Below, piece after piece: positions 5,705-14,846 of a DNA stretch of 22,084 nucleotides. The notes below the pieces were generated by a model. That model ran no database searches, was not told the origin of the DNA, and saw only the letters and a list, made by a program, of their open reading frames with translations. Origin of the DNA: Candidatus Sumerlaeota bacterium (GTDB lineage Bacteria > Sumerlaeota > Sumerlaeia > JADFCT01); the NCBI GenBank assembly GCA_026398575.1, contig JAPLSP010000712.1, positions 1 to 22,084 on the forward strand, in the 5' to 3' direction. Both the position numbers and the translations under genes were made by a program. The first letter of the stretch is position 1, and each line of letters begins with the position of its first letter.

Positions 5705-7690
5705 CCTGAGTTTACGGGTTAAGTTTCCGGAAAGCGGGATATATCCTTACTGTATAATAAATTACCAGCTCTCAGGTTGTATTACCCTTCCGAAGCAAGT
5801 ATATCTGCGATCTGAAGGGCCTCGGCCAGCTTTTTCTGGCGGGGAGACATGCGGCTGAGGGTGATGTGATCTTTGCGCCCGCCCAGGGTTTGGGGCGGAT
5901 AGATGACCGCCACCTCGCGAATATCGTTCAGCTCATCGAGCAGCGCCAGCAGCGGCAGGTCCACGCCTGCCTGAAGGGCGACTTTGCGGGCCAGGCATGA
6001 CAACAGCAATGCCAGAACACAATACAATCCGTGGACGCGCAGTTTGCCGTCGGTCCAGTGATAGGCCGGCTGCCAGCGCAGATAATCCACGTCTTTCATG
6101 TTGCGAAATGCCTCCTCGATGCCGGACAGGCTGCGATAGGTTTCCACGATCTGCCGCGCGTTCCAGTCGGCATGGGTGGAAACGATCAACGTGCGCCCCA
6201 GGCGGTCCCGGCATATTTGGTCGAATCCGGCGTGGTTGACCTGATAGCGGATCCGCGGCGTTTGGGTCTTGGCGTCTTCGGTGATCTCGACGTCAAACAC
6301 CTCTTTCATGAACTGGCCCGAAAGGATGGCGTTGACGCTCTTGCGCAGCGAGGCGGCCGTGGGCCGTTTCCTTCGGGGGGTTTTGCCGCTGATCCAGCGT
6401 TCGATATCTTTGGCCAGATCCAGCAGTTTTTTCTGGCATTTGACCATGCTTTGCGTCAGGCCATGGAGTTGCTGGGTGTAGAAGCTCTCGGTGTAAGCGA
6501 CCACGGCCCGGCAGGGTTTGCCCCAAAACTCTTCGGTCGTCTCGAATGCCTTCGTGCCCGGCAGCCCCGGCAGCGGCTGCAATTGCGCCATGGGCGTTGC
6601 CAGCAGATCGCGCCGGCCACTGGCCGAAACCGCCGTTACGAAATGCTGCCCCATGGCGATGAGCGCTTCCATGGCCTCGGCGCTGACGTTGCCCTTGTCA
6701 AAAACCAGCGTGACATCGCCGGGGCTTGCCACGGCTTTGCGATAGCGGTCCAGCAGGTCGCGCATAAGGCTTGGGAAAAGACTCACATCGGTGATGTTGC
6801 CGTCATAGACTTGGTGGAGCACGGGGATTTGAAAATCGCGCGTCAGAAGCAGCGCCAGGCCGTACTGGCGCAAGTCGTTACGGTGCTGTTTGTTGCAGCC
6901 CCGCTGAGCCAGGTGGCAGCGGTCGTTGACCGTGGCGATGTAGGTGTAAAAATTCGTCGTGTCGTACAGCAGCAGGCCGCTGTCCAATCCGAAATTCGTC
7001 TTCACGGAGGCCAGCACGCGCTCTTGAATTTGCACAATGTGGCTTTCCTCGATGCGGTCCATGTGATCCCAGAAACGCTGGCTTGAAAACGCCTCGGCGC
7101 CGTAACCCCACAACCGGCGCAAAACGGTTTCCTCGTACCAAGCGCCCATGGCCAGTTTGCTGCACGGCTCGATCGCCCGATTGAGGGCGGCTAAAAGAAT
7201 ATACTCACCGACCGAAGGCCCTTGTTCGCGCTTCGGGACGACGGCATTGATGATCTCGGTCAAACCCAACCGTTGGGCAATACGCGCCAGCGCGGCCACG
7301 CCGCCGGTTTGATAAATGACGGTCTCTTTAGGCTTGGGCGGCGTTACCGAGTCGGCGCGTTCCACCATCCCGTCGAGGGTTCCCAGATATTTCTGCCAAG
7401 TAATGCGCGGCTTTCCATCCACCCGCTTGCATTCCACCGCATAGTAGTACCCGCGTCCCTTTTTGATCTTCTTGACAAGGCTGGCCATAGCGCCCTCCGC
7501 AAACAGGATTTGCAGTAGGGTAATACATAACCGGCCCATGTCAAGCTAAATATTCAAATTAATTGGCATAAATACAATTTTATTGGGACAAAAAGGAGGG
7601 TAATACTTTTGGGCTATGGAAATATGCCTGAAAACAGGGCGTTTGCAGGCGTTTGCAGGGGGTCAGATGTGCTTAAAGCGTAAACTCAGG
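5705..7690 (-). mobile_element. IS1634-like insertion sequence with CTAG flanks
   Basis: Terminal inverted repeats lie at 5705-5723 and 7672-7690. They read CCTGAGTTTACG-GG-TTAAG and CCTGAGTTTACG-CT-TTAAG, 17 of 19 identical. Both ends are bordered by CTAG (5701-5704 and 7691-7694), which I read as a 4-bp target duplication. Copy A shows that the REP unit normally ends in CTAG, and copy D ends in CTAG exactly at the right border, so the element appears to have landed there. The 1986-bp element carries one transposase gene. Inside, GTATTACCCT occurs at 5779-5788 and inverted at 7517-7526 and 7597-7606; these could be subterminal transposase-binding sites or, less likely, the true ends. A 10-bp direct repeat GCGTTTGCAG lies at 7639-7658. 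Confidence 0.75.
5782..7488 (-). CDS. IS1634 family transposase
   Basis: This DDE transposase should cut and join the IS ends. I place the start at 7488 (M-A-S-L-V-K-K-I-K-K-G-R-G-Y-Y-Y, a typical family N-terminus) because GGAGGG lies just upstream. A longer frame begins at 7539 but has no such site. The 568 residues fit the family. Candidate catalytic residues are D176 (L-Y-D-T-T-N), D264 (V-F-D-K-G-N) and E458 in Y-R-S-L-S-G-I-E-E-A-F-R-N-M-K, the IS4-superfamily E(6)K region. No frameshift or stop is seen, so it may still be active. The stop codon overlaps the left internal GTATTACCCT repeat. Confidence 0.92.
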   Translation of the reverse strand: MASLVKKIKKGRGYYYAVECKRVDGKPRITWQKYLGTLDGMVERADSVTPPKPKETVIYQTGGVAALARIAQRLGLTEIINAVVPKREQGPSVGEYILLAALNRAIEPCSKLAMGAWYEETVLRRLWGYGAEAFSSQRFWDHMDRIEESHIVQIQERVLASVKTNFGLDSGLLLYDTTNFYTYIATVNDRCHLAQRGCNKQHRNDLRQYGLALLLTRDFQIPVLHQVYDGNITDVSLFPSLMRDLLDRYRKAVASPGDVTLVFDKGNVSAEAMEALIAMGQHFVTAVSASGRRDLLATPMAQLQPLPGLPGTKAFETTEEFWGKPCRAVVAYTESFYTQQLHGLTQSMVKCQKKLLDLAKDIERWISGKTPRRKRPTAASLRKSVNAILSGQFMKEVFDVEITEDAKTQTPRIRYQVNHAGFDQICRDRLGRTLIVSTHADWNARQIVETYRSLSGIEEAFRNMKDVDYLRWQPAYHWTDGKLRVHGLYCVLALLLSCLARKVALQAGVDLPLLALLDELNDIREVAVIYPPQTLGGRKDHITLSRMSPRQKKLAEALQIADILASEG

Positions 7691-7925: not shown

Positions 7926-9440
7926 ATGTATATTCGCAATCGCATATTGGATCTTTTTCGCAACGGCAGAGCTCGGGTATTCAGCGCCGCCAAGCAGGAG
8001 ATTACTTCCGCGCAGCTGCTGAGCAGCTTCGGCGCCATCCGCAATTATATCCGCGATCATGTCCCCGCGAAAGGGAAGGTCGCGGTTCGCCTGCCTTACG
8101 ACTACCATCAATTGCTGTGCGCCTACGCCTGCATGGAATCGGAGCGGGTCTATATTCCGCTCGAACCGGCATGGCCTGAGAATCGCATCGAGCAAATCCG
8201 CCTTTCCTCGCGCTTCGATCTGCTCATTGATGAAGCGCTTCTTCCTGAAATTTTGGCGACACCCTTCACTGGCCCGCTGGCACCCACGCCATCGCAGCCG
8301 GATGCGGAATCCATCCTGTACACGATCTATACCAGCGGTTCGACGGGCGAGCCCAAGGGCGTGATGATCTCGCGACGGGCGTATGAAAACTTTCTGCGGT
8401 TCCTGGATGGATACTATCCAGAGGTCACTCATCAGGACCGCCTGCTGATGGTCGCCAAGTTCACGTTCGACATGTCGCTGCTGGACATCGCGATGTTTCT
8501 TATTCGCGAGATGTCCATTTATTTCTCGCGCTCGAATGGCGACGCCTTCCGGCTGGCTTATGAGATCGAAGAATACGGCGTCACGTGGATTGACACGGTT
8601 CCCAACTTGGTCGTCTTATTGCTCACCGACGGGGTTTATTCGCGCGCGGATCTCTCATCGCTTCGCTTCCTGGTGATCGGCGGGGCGCGTTTCCCGTGGA
8701 AGCTGCTCGAAGACATCAAGGCCAAGCTGCCGCCGCCGTTGCTGGTGTATAATGCTTATGGTCCGACGGAGGCCACGGTTTACACTCATTTCAAGCGGCT
8801 GACGCGCAACGCCGACGAAGACGGCTATCAGGACACCGTCACGGTCGGCCAGTGCGCGATCAACGTCGAATGCCTGCTGCTGAATGCGCAAGGCGGGAAG
8901 ATAACGCAACCGCACACCCCGGGCGAAATGCTGCTCGGCGGCGCTCAACTGATGAGCGGATACTGCAACGACGCCGAGCGTACTGCGATGGTTTTGAGGG
9001 AGATCGGCGGGAAGACATACTACCGCACGGGCGACGTTGCGTTTTTCGACCGCAAGGGCGACTACTACATCACGGGGCGGATGGATGAGACCATCAAGCG
9101 CCGCGGCTATCGCATCAACCTGCTGGATATAGATTCCTACATTCACAAAATCAAAGGCGTGCAAAATTGCATCACGCTGGCGTATCCGGCGGAAAGCATC
9201 GAGCATCTGCTCATCACGGTGATCATCCCCACGCCGGGCGTCGCGCTGGAACGACATGCGCTCACGGCGGCGATGGGGCAGGACCTGGTCGAGTATCAGA
9301 TTCCGGACCTGATCGAATTCGCCGATTCCTTCCCGGTGAATAATTCGGGCAAGATCAGCCGCAGAGATTTGATGCAGCGCTATCAGCCGGTCGCCGACGC
9401 CGCCATCAGCGAGCTCCAACTGACCAGCAAGAATACATAA
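7926..9440 (+). CDS. DltA-like adenylating ligase (amino acid--carrier protein ligase)
   Basis: This 504-residue ANL-superfamily enzyme should activate an acid with ATP and load it onto the carrier protein encoded next. Motifs in order are A3 T-S-G-S-T-G-E-P-K-G (136-145), F-T-F-D-M-S with D182, A5 N-A-Y-G-P-T-E (276-282), A7 Y-R-T-G-D (about residue 363), A8 R-R-G-Y-R-I-N, and the A10 lysine K476 in N-N-S-G-K-I-S-R-R-D. D182 sits where amino-acid-activating domains hold the substrate amino group, which favours an amino acid. The length and single-domain layout fit DltA. The DltA pocket motif with C-G-E is replaced by V-I-G-G-A-R-F-P, so D-alanine cannot be assumed. The ATG is preceded only by a weak GAGG very close to the start. 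Confidence 0.85.
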   Translation: MYIRNRILDLFRNGRARVFSAAKQEITSAQLLSSFGAIRNYIRDHVPAKGKVAVRLPYDYHQLLCAYACMESERVYIPLEPAWPENRIEQIRLSSRFDLLIDEALLPEILATPFTGPLAPTPSQPDAESILYTIYTSGSTGEPKGVMISRRAYENFLRFLDGYYPEVTHQDRLLMVAKFTFDMSLLDIAMFLIREMSIYFSRSNGDAFRLAYEIEEYGVTWIDTVPNLVVLLLTDGVYSRADLSSLRFLVIGGARFPWKLLEDIKAKLPPPLLVYNAYGPTEATVYTHFKRLTRNADEDGYQDTVTVGQCAINVECLLLNAQGGKITQPHTPGEMLLGGAQLMSGYCNDAERTAMVLREIGGKTYYRTGDVAFFDRKGDYYITGRMDETIKRRGYRINLLDIDSYIHKIKGVQNCITLAYPAESIEHLLITVIIPTPGVALERHALTAAMGQDLVEYQIPDLIEFADSFPVNNSGKISRRDLMQRYQPVADAAISELQLTSKNT

Positions 9441-9646
9441 TGTAAAATGTAAAATGAGAAATGAGAAATGAGAAAAGCAAATGAGAAATGAAAAATGAGA
9501 AATGAGAAATGTAAAATGAGAAATGGAAAATGAGAAATGTAAAATGACAATCCATCCCGGCAACGGTATTATTCAGCTCTGTGTTATTTGCCTACCGCGC
9601 GCGGGCTCATTTTCAATTTCTCATTTCTCATTTTACACTTTACATT
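9439..9646. repeat. ATGAGAA-type tandem repeats forming a long inverted repeat
   Basis: From 9441 to 9546 the sequence is a run of ATGAGAA, ATGTAAA and similar 7-10 base units. A shorter block of the complementary sequence lies at 9607-9646. Arms 9439-9468 and 9617-9646 are complementary over 30 bases with one mismatch. The whole sits between the ligase and carrier-protein genes and starts at the ligase stop codon, so the transcript could fold into a large AU-rich hairpin just before the carrier-protein gene. Confidence 0.8.
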
Positions 9647-9665
9647 GATAACAAGGACCCAGCAC

Positions 9666-11439: not shown

Positions 11440-11466
11440 CCCTTTGATAAAGGAATTCATCGCCAC

Positions 11467-11610
11467 ATGTGGATCATGGAGAAATTTGACGATATCGGAC
11501 GGCGCCATCCAGGTTTGGCGCTGGCGGTCGTTGTGTTGTTGGGGTTGGTTGCCGTCTTTAGCCTGATCAGCCAGCTTGAGACGCAAATCCTGCTCTATGA
11601 AGGATTCTAA
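11467..11610 (+). CDS. DltX-like single-TM microprotein ending in Y-E-G-F
   Basis: A 47-residue protein lies between the MBOAT and DltD-like genes. The N-terminus is charged (K6, R12, R13), residues 16-34 form one hydrophobic helix, and the tail ends L-L-Y-E-G-F with Y44 four residues from the end. By the positive-inside rule the C-terminus faces the periplasm. Gram-positive DltX proteins are ~50 residues, have one TM and end F-I-Y-N-E-F. Their tyrosine is reported to carry D-alanine between DltB and DltD. Size, topology, tail and position fit that role here, although DltX in Gram-positives is usually upstream of dltA. AAAGGA lies 12-13 bases before the ATG; ATG 11476 is an alternative start. 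The 3' end overlaps the next gene by 14 bases. Low sequence identity makes this an inference. Confidence 0.72.
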   Translation: MWIMEKFDDIGRRHPGLALAVVVLLGLVAVFSLISQLETQILLYEGF

Positions 11611-12637
11611 GACAGTGAACACGCAGATGGCATCCAAGCGGCGCATTCATCTCCTCGTGACGCTCTCGCAGTTGGCGTTCGTACTGGGCTTGTTTCCGGG
11701 TCTCTATGCCCTGAGCAGTTCCGGCTGGATGAGGAATTGGCTTGCCGAAAAAGACACGGAGAACTGGAGGGAGCACAAGCGGCGGGGCGTGCTGGCGGGA
11801 CCGTATGCCAGCAACTTGAATCAGCTTAATCTGGAAAATGTCTATCAGCCGGATTTCTGCTCCAAAAAGGTGTATGTTCTCGGAACGTGCAATGTGGAGG
11901 ATTTCTTCGATATCACGCAGCTATCGCCCTCGCAGCGCCAACGGGTTGAAATGCTGGCGCTGGCCAGATGCGATCTGATTGATTTGCGCAACCTGGTGGA
12001 CTGGCTGAGGAGGGATTTCGGTTTCGGGCAAAAATTCGACGAACATACCCTGATCATTCTTGGCGTGAATTCCGACGACGCCGGGCTTCATGGCGATCCG
12101 TTCCTTCGGATTTCGTTCGAGGCGTCGGGGCTCTATGATTTTTCGAAAGATGAAAAGATAACCACGCGGCATATCAGCGAGCCGCTGAGATGGTGGCGCC
12201 TGATGCGCGCGCGAACGGCCAATTTCATCATTCGGATGCAATCGCTTCAAGCGGCCCGACCGCAGACAAGGCCCAAAGGGCCCGATCTGGATATGAGCAT
12301 TGCGATCACGCCGCGGCAGTTGGCGGCCTATCGCCAATTGCTCGAGAATTTGATCTCGACGCGCGCCACCGTCAAAGTCGTCTTCTATCCGCTGGGCAGC
12401 TGGTTCAAAACGCCGCGCCGCGCCGACGTCCGGCGTCAGATGATGGAAATCGCCCGCCAATACAAGTTGGACATCCTCGATCTGACCGACGTGGTTCCGG
12501 ATGACGGATTTATGGATTCAACTCATCTGGCGATGGAAGGCGTGAAGAAAACTCACCCACTGGTTTTTCCAATGATCCAATCGGCGCTGTCCGATGCGCC
12601 GCTCCCTTCCCCTTCCCGCGCCGCCAACCTCCCATAA
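11597..12637 (+). CDS. DltD-like membrane-anchored SGNH protein with Cys at the nucleophile site
   Basis: From ATG 11597 the protein has 346 residues. A TTG 21 bases upstream is in frame, but the ATG gives the classic overlap with the microprotein stop. Residues ~16-40 form an N-terminal membrane anchor and the rest should be periplasmic. SGNH-type blocks can be traced: V-Y-V-L-G-T-C-N (92-99) at the nucleophile turn, I-L-G-V-N-S-D-D (154-161, like the G-x-N-D block) and F-M-D-S-T-H (305-310) as the D-x-x-H block. The nucleophile position holds C98 instead of Ser. By analogy with DltD it would transfer the group to its polymer. The last ~13 residues (P-L-P-S-P-S-R-A-A-N-L-P) lead into a tandem repeat that supplies the stop codon. 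The SGNH assignment rests on motif order, not on overall similarity. Confidence 0.7.
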   Translation: MKDSKTVNTQMASKRRIHLLVTLSQLAFVLGLFPGLYALSSSGWMRNWLAEKDTENWREHKRRGVLAGPYASNLNQLNLENVYQPDFCSKKVYVLGTCNVEDFFDITQLSPSQRQRVEMLALARCDLIDLRNLVDWLRRDFGFGQKFDEHTLIILGVNSDDAGLHGDPFLRISFEASGLYDFSKDEKITTRHISEPLRWWRLMRARTANFIIRMQSLQAARPQTRPKGPDLDMSIAITPRQLAAYRQLLENLISTRATVKVVFYPLGSWFKTPRRADVRRQMMEIARQYKLDILDLTDVVPDDGFMDSTHLAMEGVKKTHPLVFPMIQSALSDAPLPSPSRAANLP

Positions 12638-13715: not shown

Positions 13716-14726
13716 TCAGCCGTTTGTTGTCTTTCTCGATTGCAGCCACACCGCCAATACAATAATCACCGCCTTGATCATCAACTCCACATTGGTATCC
13801 ACCATCCGCAGACGCAGGATGTTTGTCAGGATGCCCATGATCAACGTCCCAATAATAGTCCCGGAGATGGAGCCTTTTCCACCGGAAAGACTCGTGCCGC
13901 CGATCACCACGGCGGCGATGGCTTCCAATTCATAGCCGACGCCGTCGTTCGGATTGCCCTGATGGCACTGCGCCGAATGGACCACTCCGGCCAGACCGGA
14001 AAGCAAACCGCACAGCGTATAGACCATGATCTTGCGCCACGCGATGGGGAGCCCCGCATAAGCGGCGGCCTGCTCATTGTCGCCGATGGCTCGCACATGC
14101 CGCCCAAACACGGTGCGGCTGAGCAGCACGGCGAAGATGATCGCCAGCGCCGCAAAGCAGCCGATTACCACGGCTTTCTCCGAAAGAATATTTGAAAAGA
14201 TCGCCGTGACGTCATTGCCGAAGCCAAAGTCTATGTTGGTATTGTTCGTGAGCCATTTAGCCAATCCGCGCAAACCCAGCATGGTGGCCAGCGTTACGAT
14301 GAACGGCTGCACGCGAAGGCACGAGATGACCACGCCGTTCACCGCTCCCGCCGCCGCCGAAACCGCCAGCGCGACCGCGACCGCCAGAACGATATGCCCG
14401 GTTATTCCGACGCCCGGCGCCCAGCGCGTGAGCGCGAGCGCCGTCACCGACGCCGACAGCGCCAACATGCTGCCGACCGACAGGTCAATGCCGCCCGACA
14501 GGATGACAAACGTCATGGCAATGGCGATGATGCCGATTTCGGAAACCTGCCGCAGGACATCGGTGAGATTGCCGATCTGGAGGAAGATCAACGAGCCGTC
14601 AGTCGAGCGTGGACTCAGGATGATCGCCATCACGATCAACCCCAGCAGCCCGGCGGCGCTTTGCAGTTTGCGGAGATGTCGAAATATTGGATGGCTGAGT
14701 GTCATGGGCAATTCCAAATTCTGCAT
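13716..14726 (-). CDS. Sugar ABC transporter permease (RbsC-like)
   Basis: The 336-residue membrane protein belongs to the BPD_transp_2 family of ribose/xylose/galactose importers. Features include the hydrophobic A-M-T-F-V-I-L-S-G-G-I-D-L-S-V-G-S-M segment, R-A-I-G-D-N-E-Q-A-A-A-Y-A-G-L, and A-A-V-V-I-G-G-T-S-L-S-G-G-K-G-S near the C-terminus, which are hallmark RbsC motifs. The frame is open upstream to 14819, but those 31 residues (P-C-P-S-V-P-V-R-A-R-P) are translated 10-bp repeat, so I start at 14726. ATG 14705, preceded by TTGGA, is an equally possible start. It lies between the ATPase and binding-protein genes of the same operon. Confidence 0.9.
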   Translation of the reverse strand: MQNLELPMTLSHPIFRHLRKLQSAAGLLGLIVMAIILSPRSTDGSLIFLQIGNLTDVLRQVSEIGIIAIAMTFVILSGGIDLSVGSMLALSASVTALALTRWAPGVGITGHIVLAVAVALAVSAAAGAVNGVVISCLRVQPFIVTLATMLGLRGLAKWLTNNTNIDFGFGNDVTAIFSNILSEKAVVIGCFAALAIIFAVLLSRTVFGRHVRAIGDNEQAAAYAGLPIAWRKIMVYTLCGLLSGLAGVVHSAQCHQGNPNDGVGYELEAIAAVVIGGTSLSGGKGSISGTIIGTLIMGILTNILRLRMVDTNVELMIKAVIIVLAVWLQSRKTTNG

Positions 14727-14740
14727 AGTCGGGTCTTTTG

Positions 14741-14820
14741 GGCGGGCACGGACGGGCACGGACGGGCACGGACAGGCACGGACTGACACGGACAGACACG
14801 GACTGGCACGGACGGGCACG
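14741..14820. repeat. 10-bp minisatellite (GGCACGGACG-type), eight units
   Basis: Eight consecutive 10-bp units of the form GAC(G/A/T)G(G/A)CACG fill most of the gap between the ATPase stop (14847) and the permease start. The array is open in the permease frame, so its length could affect spacing, translation coupling or an N-terminal extension. Confidence 0.9.
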
Positions 14821-14846
14821 GACAGATGACCGACAAAAAGGAAGCG

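Follow-up and report, generated by a model that had tools for sequence, protein, structure and literature searches.

The locus studied here raises the question of what a frame of 47 codons is doing between the genes for an MBOAT acyltransferase and an SGNH-like protein, and whether its product carries acyl groups for these neighbors. According to the part of PMC12148441 available to us, PatA acylates the Tyr of its own C-terminal F-x-Y-x-x-F tail, and DltX provides such a tail as a separate protein, to whose Tyr D-Ala is transferred. In the window (the whole stretch of 22,084 nucleotides that was analyzed) the genes follow the order AMP-forming ligase, carrier, MBOAT, microprotein and SGNH-like gene, i.e. 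an A-C-B-X-D type of cluster (Table 1). Taken together, the data presented below make it probable (roughly 0.78) that the microprotein is the detached acyl-tyrosine shuttle of the adjacent carrier-fed MBOAT-SGNH system and works like DltX.

Table 1. Coordinates of the features discussed in the text, in window numbering.
Feature	Position	Strand	Evidence and remarks
DDE transposase (PF01609)	5782-7539	-	just upstream of the cluster
AMP-forming (adenylation) ligase, 504 aa	7926-9440	+	PF00501 1.9e-52
Low-complexity short repeats	9380-9650		between ligase and carrier; minus-strand frames rich in H-F-S-F-L
Acyl/peptidyl carrier protein, about 80 aa	9666-9908	+	W-D-S-M attachment site; PP-binding 5.1e-4
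MBOAT acyltransferase, 410 aa	10207-11439	+	DltB length, without fused C-terminal shuttle motif; PF03062 4.6e-16
AAAGGA, possible ribosome-binding site of the microprotein gene	11449-11454	+	sequence reading; 12 bases before ATG
47-aa single-TM microprotein	11467-11610	+	tail L-L-Y-E-G-F; Y44 codon 11596-11598
SGNH-like partner	11597-12637	+	N-terminal hydrophobic stretch, block I G-T-C-N, C-terminal D-x-x-H; weak family matches
Low-complexity short repeats	14700-14830		near ABC transporter genes; R-A-R-T-G-T-D-like frames

Translation of the frame gives MWIMEKFDDIGRRHPGLALAVVVLLGLVAVFSLISQLETQILLYEGF, 47 aa with one TM helix (best 17-residue Kyte-Doolittle mean 3.03), just as an earlier sequence-only reading of this DNA had described it, and both size and helix fit the DltX criterion of about 50 aa and one TM. 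Compared with the F-x-Y-x-x-F of DltX, the tail keeps the Tyr and the final Phe and has Leu in place of the first Phe. The same reading had proposed a positive N-terminus, which is true of the RRH immediately preceding the helix but not of the region overall, where charge is mixed (K6, R12, R13 and H14 versus E5, D8 and D9). It had also placed the gene between MBOAT and DltD-like genes; the frame does adjoin both, its ATG following the MBOAT stop after a 27-base gap, although the DltD-likeness of the downstream gene is weak (PF04914, E 0.27, below cut-off). The claimed 14-base overlap with that gene, within which the Y44 codon overlaps the start codon, holds provided that the latter is ATG 11597, with TTG 11576 and ATG 11627 being alternative possible starts. 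A Pfam search with the microprotein returned 0 families at E up to 10, DltX PF12459 included, NCBIfam gave weak matches alone, all far below cut-off, and a word-based protein search found the self-match alone and no homologue.

We therefore turn to comparable loci. The search for MBOAT relatives covered 289 genomes from the class to which L007's genome belongs (Pelagibius), 191 from the phylum that includes L001's genome (Halobacteriovorax), 297 from the phylum that includes L004's genome (a Terriglobus record), and four individual genomes. With extended flanks we then read 29 stretches, representing the matches listed with an open frame of <450 aa and a small number with longer frames; two short frames among the Pelagibius-class matches listed (G009 and G252) were left out. 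The short group (n=23) consists of the 21 of these 29 stretches with a short tail-less MBOAT together with L007 and the window, and the fused controls (n=27) of 20 regions surrounding fused MBOATs plus a further seven fused loci. L054, L055, L093, L095, L096 and L135, with fused and mostly cut or frameshifted MBOATs, are in neither group. The compared loci lie outside the close (44-60% identical) relatives of the window MBOAT. A scan of genome contigs for these close kin yielded distant kin alone, no relative turned up when viral contigs were scanned with the MBOAT alignment, and a plasmid search gave four records, namely one distant MBOAT and three from Bacillota. Our finder accepted frames of 30-90 aa on the same strand, with a stop at most 1.5 kb from the MBOAT, a TM helix and the tail [FLIVMAWYP]-x-Y-x(1-2)-[FLMVIWY] at the very end. 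Short loci were selected for MBOAT shortness and the Tyr itself is built into the search pattern, which was moreover widened to one or two residues after the Tyr once early members had been seen, and for these reasons only the contrast with the controls is independent.

A Tyr-tail TM microprotein was found in 20/23 short-MBOAT loci (window included) versus 3/27 fused loci (Fisher p 6.6e-8), with 0/50 loci in the opposite-strand control; when the near-copies L130-L132 are counted once, 18/21 short loci have the microprotein (p 1.9e-7). One of the three fused-locus matches is the DUF5989 protein of L005 and two are chance-like. Each of the three short loci that the finder missed (L007, L049 and L050, the MBOATs of the last two being 47 and 51% identical to that of the first) has a TM microprotein that overlaps the MBOAT end and carries a longer Tyr tail (ILYEDVQ, ILYFDVGSSR and PYLDLHRTK). 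Among the 22 tabulated microproteins, from which the L051 candidate is omitted, the tail is exactly [FL]-x-Y-x-x-F in 16 and F-Q-Y-x-[FL] in three, and the presence of the Tyr in all 22 is partly by selection. Gene position varies: the microprotein gene comes after the MBOAT, as in the window, before it in L052, L089, L091, L094 and L130-L134, and after the SGNH gene in L053. The L051 candidate, the least sure of the set, lies about 1.1 kb upstream of its MBOAT, the contig breaking off 294 bases after it. Conservation of the Tyr tail, as read across these loci, is one of architecture and tail and not of overall sequence.

A cruder earlier finder, which missed cases in long overlapping frames and placed L053 among the fused loci, had given a microprotein in 16/25 tail-less versus 4/79 tailed MBOATs (0/25 and 1/79 on the opposite strand). 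Its 25 included L026 (443 aa) and L028 (477 aa), fused-length MBOAT frames without tail or microprotein, as well as the Bacillota locus L047; none of these is among the 23, to which L053 was added. In a Niallia control with the finder widened to 4 kb we recovered a DltX-like ORF (tail NYIYNDF) by dlt-type genes and one chance-like match, and at the Bacillota DltB loci L157 and L158 the finder gave no convincing microprotein. As a separate observation, L094:6187-8578, from the Halobacteriovorax phylum, holds a Dlt-like set of DltD, a microprotein ending PFVYQEF, a short MBOAT and an adjoining ligase; its DltD match is clear (PF04914 4.1e-30) and adjoins microprotein and short MBOAT.

The fused side offers a view of the same tail. 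The best matches in the Terriglobus-record phylum, L127 and L128 (E 4e-87 and 9e-86), have MBOATs of 479 and 478 aa with two extra hydrophobic stretches by reading and the tail D-I-V-Y-K-A-F, which lines up, right at the C-terminus, with the window L-L-Y-E-G-F. A quick maximum-likelihood tree built from 61 MBOATs groups L127, L128 and L046 with the window family (97 starred) and places three Bacillota DltB within the split forms; MBOATs cluster by state, split or fused, and two changes between the states are needed. Single placements are unsure because the search was short and several long branches and open forks are present. The complex prediction that the sequence-only reading had also proposed was run on MBOAT and microprotein as one read-through chain: with an MBOAT-only alignment, the MBOAT was confident and the microprotein block had a pLDDT of 36-64 (tail 36-48), and with fused homologues added the helix reached at most 73 and the tail 45-46, a low-confidence placement. 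The sequence-only reading had proposed to check its case on the conservation of ORF and tail in related clusters, and both sides of the comparison bear it out: TM microproteins ending in a Tyr tail occur by short MBOATs in three further genome groups, and the nearest fused kin found carry a like tail on the MBOAT itself. The parts and their order, the tail, its recurrence by short MBOATs and its fusion to full-length ones can in this way all be read in the sequences.

The SGNH assignment of the downstream product rests on weak matches. The protein search returned one homologue of this product, P0123 (53-55% identical), which matches PF04914 at 0.0046 and GDSL at 0.0034, below cut-off, and both G-T-C-N and F-M-D-x-x-H are conserved between the two. 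Within G-T-C-N, Cys98 (window 11888-11890) occupies the usual position of the catalytic Ser, and a cysteine nucleophile is possible in this protein. At the same position G-S-S is found in the partners of L007, L049, L050, L053, L086, L088, L090 and L094 and of the fused-MBOAT loci L001, L127 and L128, and G-N-S in the L092 partner; Ser-type SGNH candidates also lie near the MBOATs of L048, L051, L052, L091, L134 and L136 (motif scan only). SGNH-like partners were recognized in 16/23 short-MBOAT loci including the window, several by motif alone, and none with confidence in the other seven. An hhalign profile comparison of the window partner with other partners gave no significant match, and a search for related solved proteins found none.

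Based on these parts, we propose a relay in which the acyl-transfer chemistry would by analogy be that of DltX and PatA, and for which we infer all chemical steps as well as the identities of acyl group and acceptor. The ligase would adenylate its substrate, a small carboxylic acid and probably an amino acid, and place it as a thioester on the carrier, from which the MBOAT would take the acyl group at the cytoplasmic side, with H326 helping to hand it on to the microprotein at Y44, in the extracytoplasmic tail. The acyl-Tyr tail would then swing to the SGNH-like protein, where a nucleophile, probably Cys98, would accept the acyl group before it is handed to an envelope polymer. We consider it rather unlikely that the microprotein is instead a small membrane subunit that stabilizes or regulates the MBOAT-SGNH pair and carries no acyl group, its tail merely docking in the MBOAT funnel. 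In favor of such a subunit, PMC11035591 suggests that the DltD helix and DltX might regulate DltB; however, the Tyr tail is common to short-MBOAT loci, whose microproteins otherwise diverge, it is found much less often at fused loci (with Tyr in the search pattern, it is the contrast with the controls that forms the argument), and acyl-Tyr in PatA and D-Ala transfer to the DltX Tyr are on record in the part of PMC12148441 cited above.

If the microprotein is a shuttle, it might still be that of a known system, namely a Dlt (D-alanylation) operon that a host outside the Bacillota has taken up, with the microprotein as a genuine DltX orthologue. The partner types are similar to those of dltABCD, the tail is FLYFGF-like, and the MBOAT fold is nearest to DltB, with DltB 6bug and 8jem being the nearest solved proteins by profile and fold comparison (TM-score 0.68 on the query for 6bug). 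H280 and H326 of the MBOAT, which by reading of the profile alignment match the DltB residues His289 and His336 named in the accessible part of PMC11035591, are invariant in alignment A1 (21 rows, the window MBOAT plus 20 relatives selected among the 120 matches listed), and 0/21 of these rows have a fused tail. Nevertheless, the scores of all three partners fall below the curated cut-offs, far below for MBOAT (DltB TIGR04091, 189.9 bits, cut-off 375) and ligase (NCBIfam DltA, 195.3 bits, cut-off 559.85), the carrier having 16.9 bits against the DltC model (cut-off 68). The carrier ORF opens at TTG 9588 with ATG 9666 as the likelier start; its PP-binding score of 20.7 bits is marginally below the 20.8 cut-off, and its match to the acyl carrier protein PRK12449 (1.2e-6) is also under cut-off. 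The ligase is 22% identical to two Bacillota DltA, as compared with 34-39% to the ligases of L001, L002 and L088 (38-39% for L001 and L002), and retains the F-D-x-S aspartate but has V-I-G-G where both compared Bacillota DltA show F-C-G-E, the Cys of which we take to be part of the D-Ala pocket. Judged on these comparisons, the ligase is DltA-like by position yet not DltA by curated cut-off, and it is expected to load the carrier protein. Combined with the lack of a PF12459 match for the microprotein, the separation of the window MBOAT clade from the three Bacillota DltB in the tree and a gene order other than the X-A-B-C-D of the dlt operon, these differences make a Dlt operon very improbable. 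Membership of the microprotein in DltX proper was tried as an assignment and is rejected on family match and partners, so that of the DltX-type acyl relay put forward by the sequence-only reading it is the relay, supported by the recurring Tyr tails by short MBOATs, that stands, and not the family. One 45%-identical MBOAT relative is labelled Verrucomicrobiia, and for this reason a Gram-negative host for the cluster is plausible.

The ORF itself is confirmed as real. We made 20,000 dinucleotide shuffles of 11440-11626 and scored them for a + strand ORF of at least 35 aa, a TM helix and a Tyr tail: an ORF of this length arose in 6,832 and a TM helix as well in 569, and the tail in addition in 0. 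The C-terminal L-L-Y-E-G-F that had been claimed is read in the translation. Across the whole window TM and tail are combined in 1/117 ORFs of 35-70 aa, namely in the microprotein ORF. A chance ORF in the gap between the MBOAT and SGNH-like genes, for which the shortness of the frame and the lack of a homologue found might speak, is next to negligible as an explanation given these shuffles, a place, strand and tail that match most of the 22 other short-MBOAT loci, and a third-position G+C of 0.68, like the 0.69 of the adjacent MBOAT.

For the proposed shuttle, the genes that feed the MBOAT are of interest beyond the window. At most 5 kb away (where the stretch reached), a ligase, ACP or FkbH-like gene was present in 18/23 short versus 8/27 fused loci, with 3/20 in the fused control regions that form a subset of the 27; carrier/loader genes were not found at 5/23 split loci. 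The equation of split with carrier-fed and fused with CoA-fed was considered as a rule and rejected, as 8/27 fused loci with loaders and 5/23 split loci without them leave a tendency only. Among the short loci the loader is a ligase in 10 and FkbH-like in 6, and this difference suggests several acyl groups as cargo of the shuttle. An FkbH-like loader and an ACP match were also observed near the MBOATs, split or fused, of L048, L053, L091, L130-L132, L127, L128 and L046, hinting at glycerate-like acyl groups on envelope polymers, which are presumably also to be expected at L127 and L128 with their FkbH-like loader. FkbH loading of glycerate is mentioned in the accessible part of PMC10143770.

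A further family came to light beside these loci. DUF5989 (PF19451), of ~50 aa with a single TM, occurs in 55/144 genomes, and its tail has the same shape as the acyl-shuttle tail, P-F-[IV]-Y-T-x-F in 28/28 copies read (28 of the 30 loci L159-L188), the reading itself having required a Tyr tail. It is present at L005:6716-6865, and a DUF5989-like protein at L087:5157-5309 is the microprotein of a split MBOAT. The ~3-kb DUF5989 loci L159-L188 gave no MBOAT matches, which is against a direct MBOAT link, and no paper in the literature searched names the family. Its neighbors include carbamoyltransferase and SxtJ-family genes in L162 and L188, a carbamoyltransferase and a weak GDSL match in L005, a GDSL/SGNH gene in L180 and a transpeptidase in L165; from these gene neighborhoods a relay of a carbamoyl-type group across the membrane is conceivable.

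At present we can put forward a broader reading only tentatively, as something possible but on balance doubtful: Gram-positive DltB/DltX may represent a single branch within a wide family of 'split' MBOATs that is mostly Gram-negative and whose Tyr microproteins would shuttle carrier-bound acyl groups (amino acids, glycerate-like groups and others) across the membrane, and in the window the relay may end on a Cys SGNH, the acyl group being bound first as a thioester on the carrier, then as an ester on Tyr and again as a thioester on Cys before it reaches the polymer. Dlt genes are known in Dickeya, Pectobacterium and Photorhabdus, as stated in the part of PMC3544676 available. The 2025 paper PMC12148441, in its accessible part, describes non-Dlt MBOAT/SGNH pathways as being without a similar carrier protein and without a DltX-like microprotein; considering that Tyr-tail microproteins lie by short MBOATs in the window and three genome groups, often with carrier/loader genes, neither statement would be general. 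Among the papers listed by the literature searches, a scope outside which most subscription papers fall, none was seen to report DltX-like microproteins outside the Dlt system. If the shuttle reading is true, then genes of 35-55 aa that are easily overlooked would be working parts of envelope-modifying machines, and MBOAT length would tell where to look for Tyr-tail microproteins. Moreover, the relay model would gain a simple evolutionary test, as tail-less MBOATs should carry the tail in trans.

The locus can be compared with several known systems. In AlmEFG, which transfers glycine to lipid A, an amino-acid ligase and a carrier likewise feed an envelope acyltransferase in a Gram-negative setting, and this acyltransferase is of a different family, with no MBOAT, SGNH or microprotein. 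In functional kind, the window has both an MBOAT with invariant His and a Tyr tail on the MBOAT's partner. Similar to the window microprotein, the DltX (PF12459) of Bacillota dltXABCD has about 50 aa, one TM and a C-terminal Tyr hexapeptide, and is encoded with adenylation enzyme, carrier, MBOAT and SGNH-type genes. They differ in that the tail of one species' DltX is FLYFGF (PMC11035591, in the part available) and the window tail begins with L, in the family match, in a ligase not of DltA type, in a weakly related SGNH partner with Cys, and in gene order, dltX coming first in its operon and the microprotein gene lying between the MBOAT and SGNH genes. The PatA/PatB-type O-acetyltransferases share with the window the MBOAT-SGNH pair and a C-terminal acyl-Tyr shuttle (PMC12148441, accessible part), which in the window is predicted; their tail is fused to the MBOAT and their donor is acyl-CoA, whereas in the window the tail is a separate protein and carrier and ligase are encoded. 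L001 and L002 (Bdellovibrionota) have ligase, ACP, MBOAT and SGNH in a row like the window, but their tail is fused to the MBOAT (FIYFNF and FIYFQF) and a separate microprotein was not found. Finally, L127 and L128, with their tail D-I-V-Y-K-A-F, are the nearest fused kin found of the window MBOAT family, from which they differ in having the microprotein part fused to the MBOAT and an FkbH-like loader together with ACP genes.
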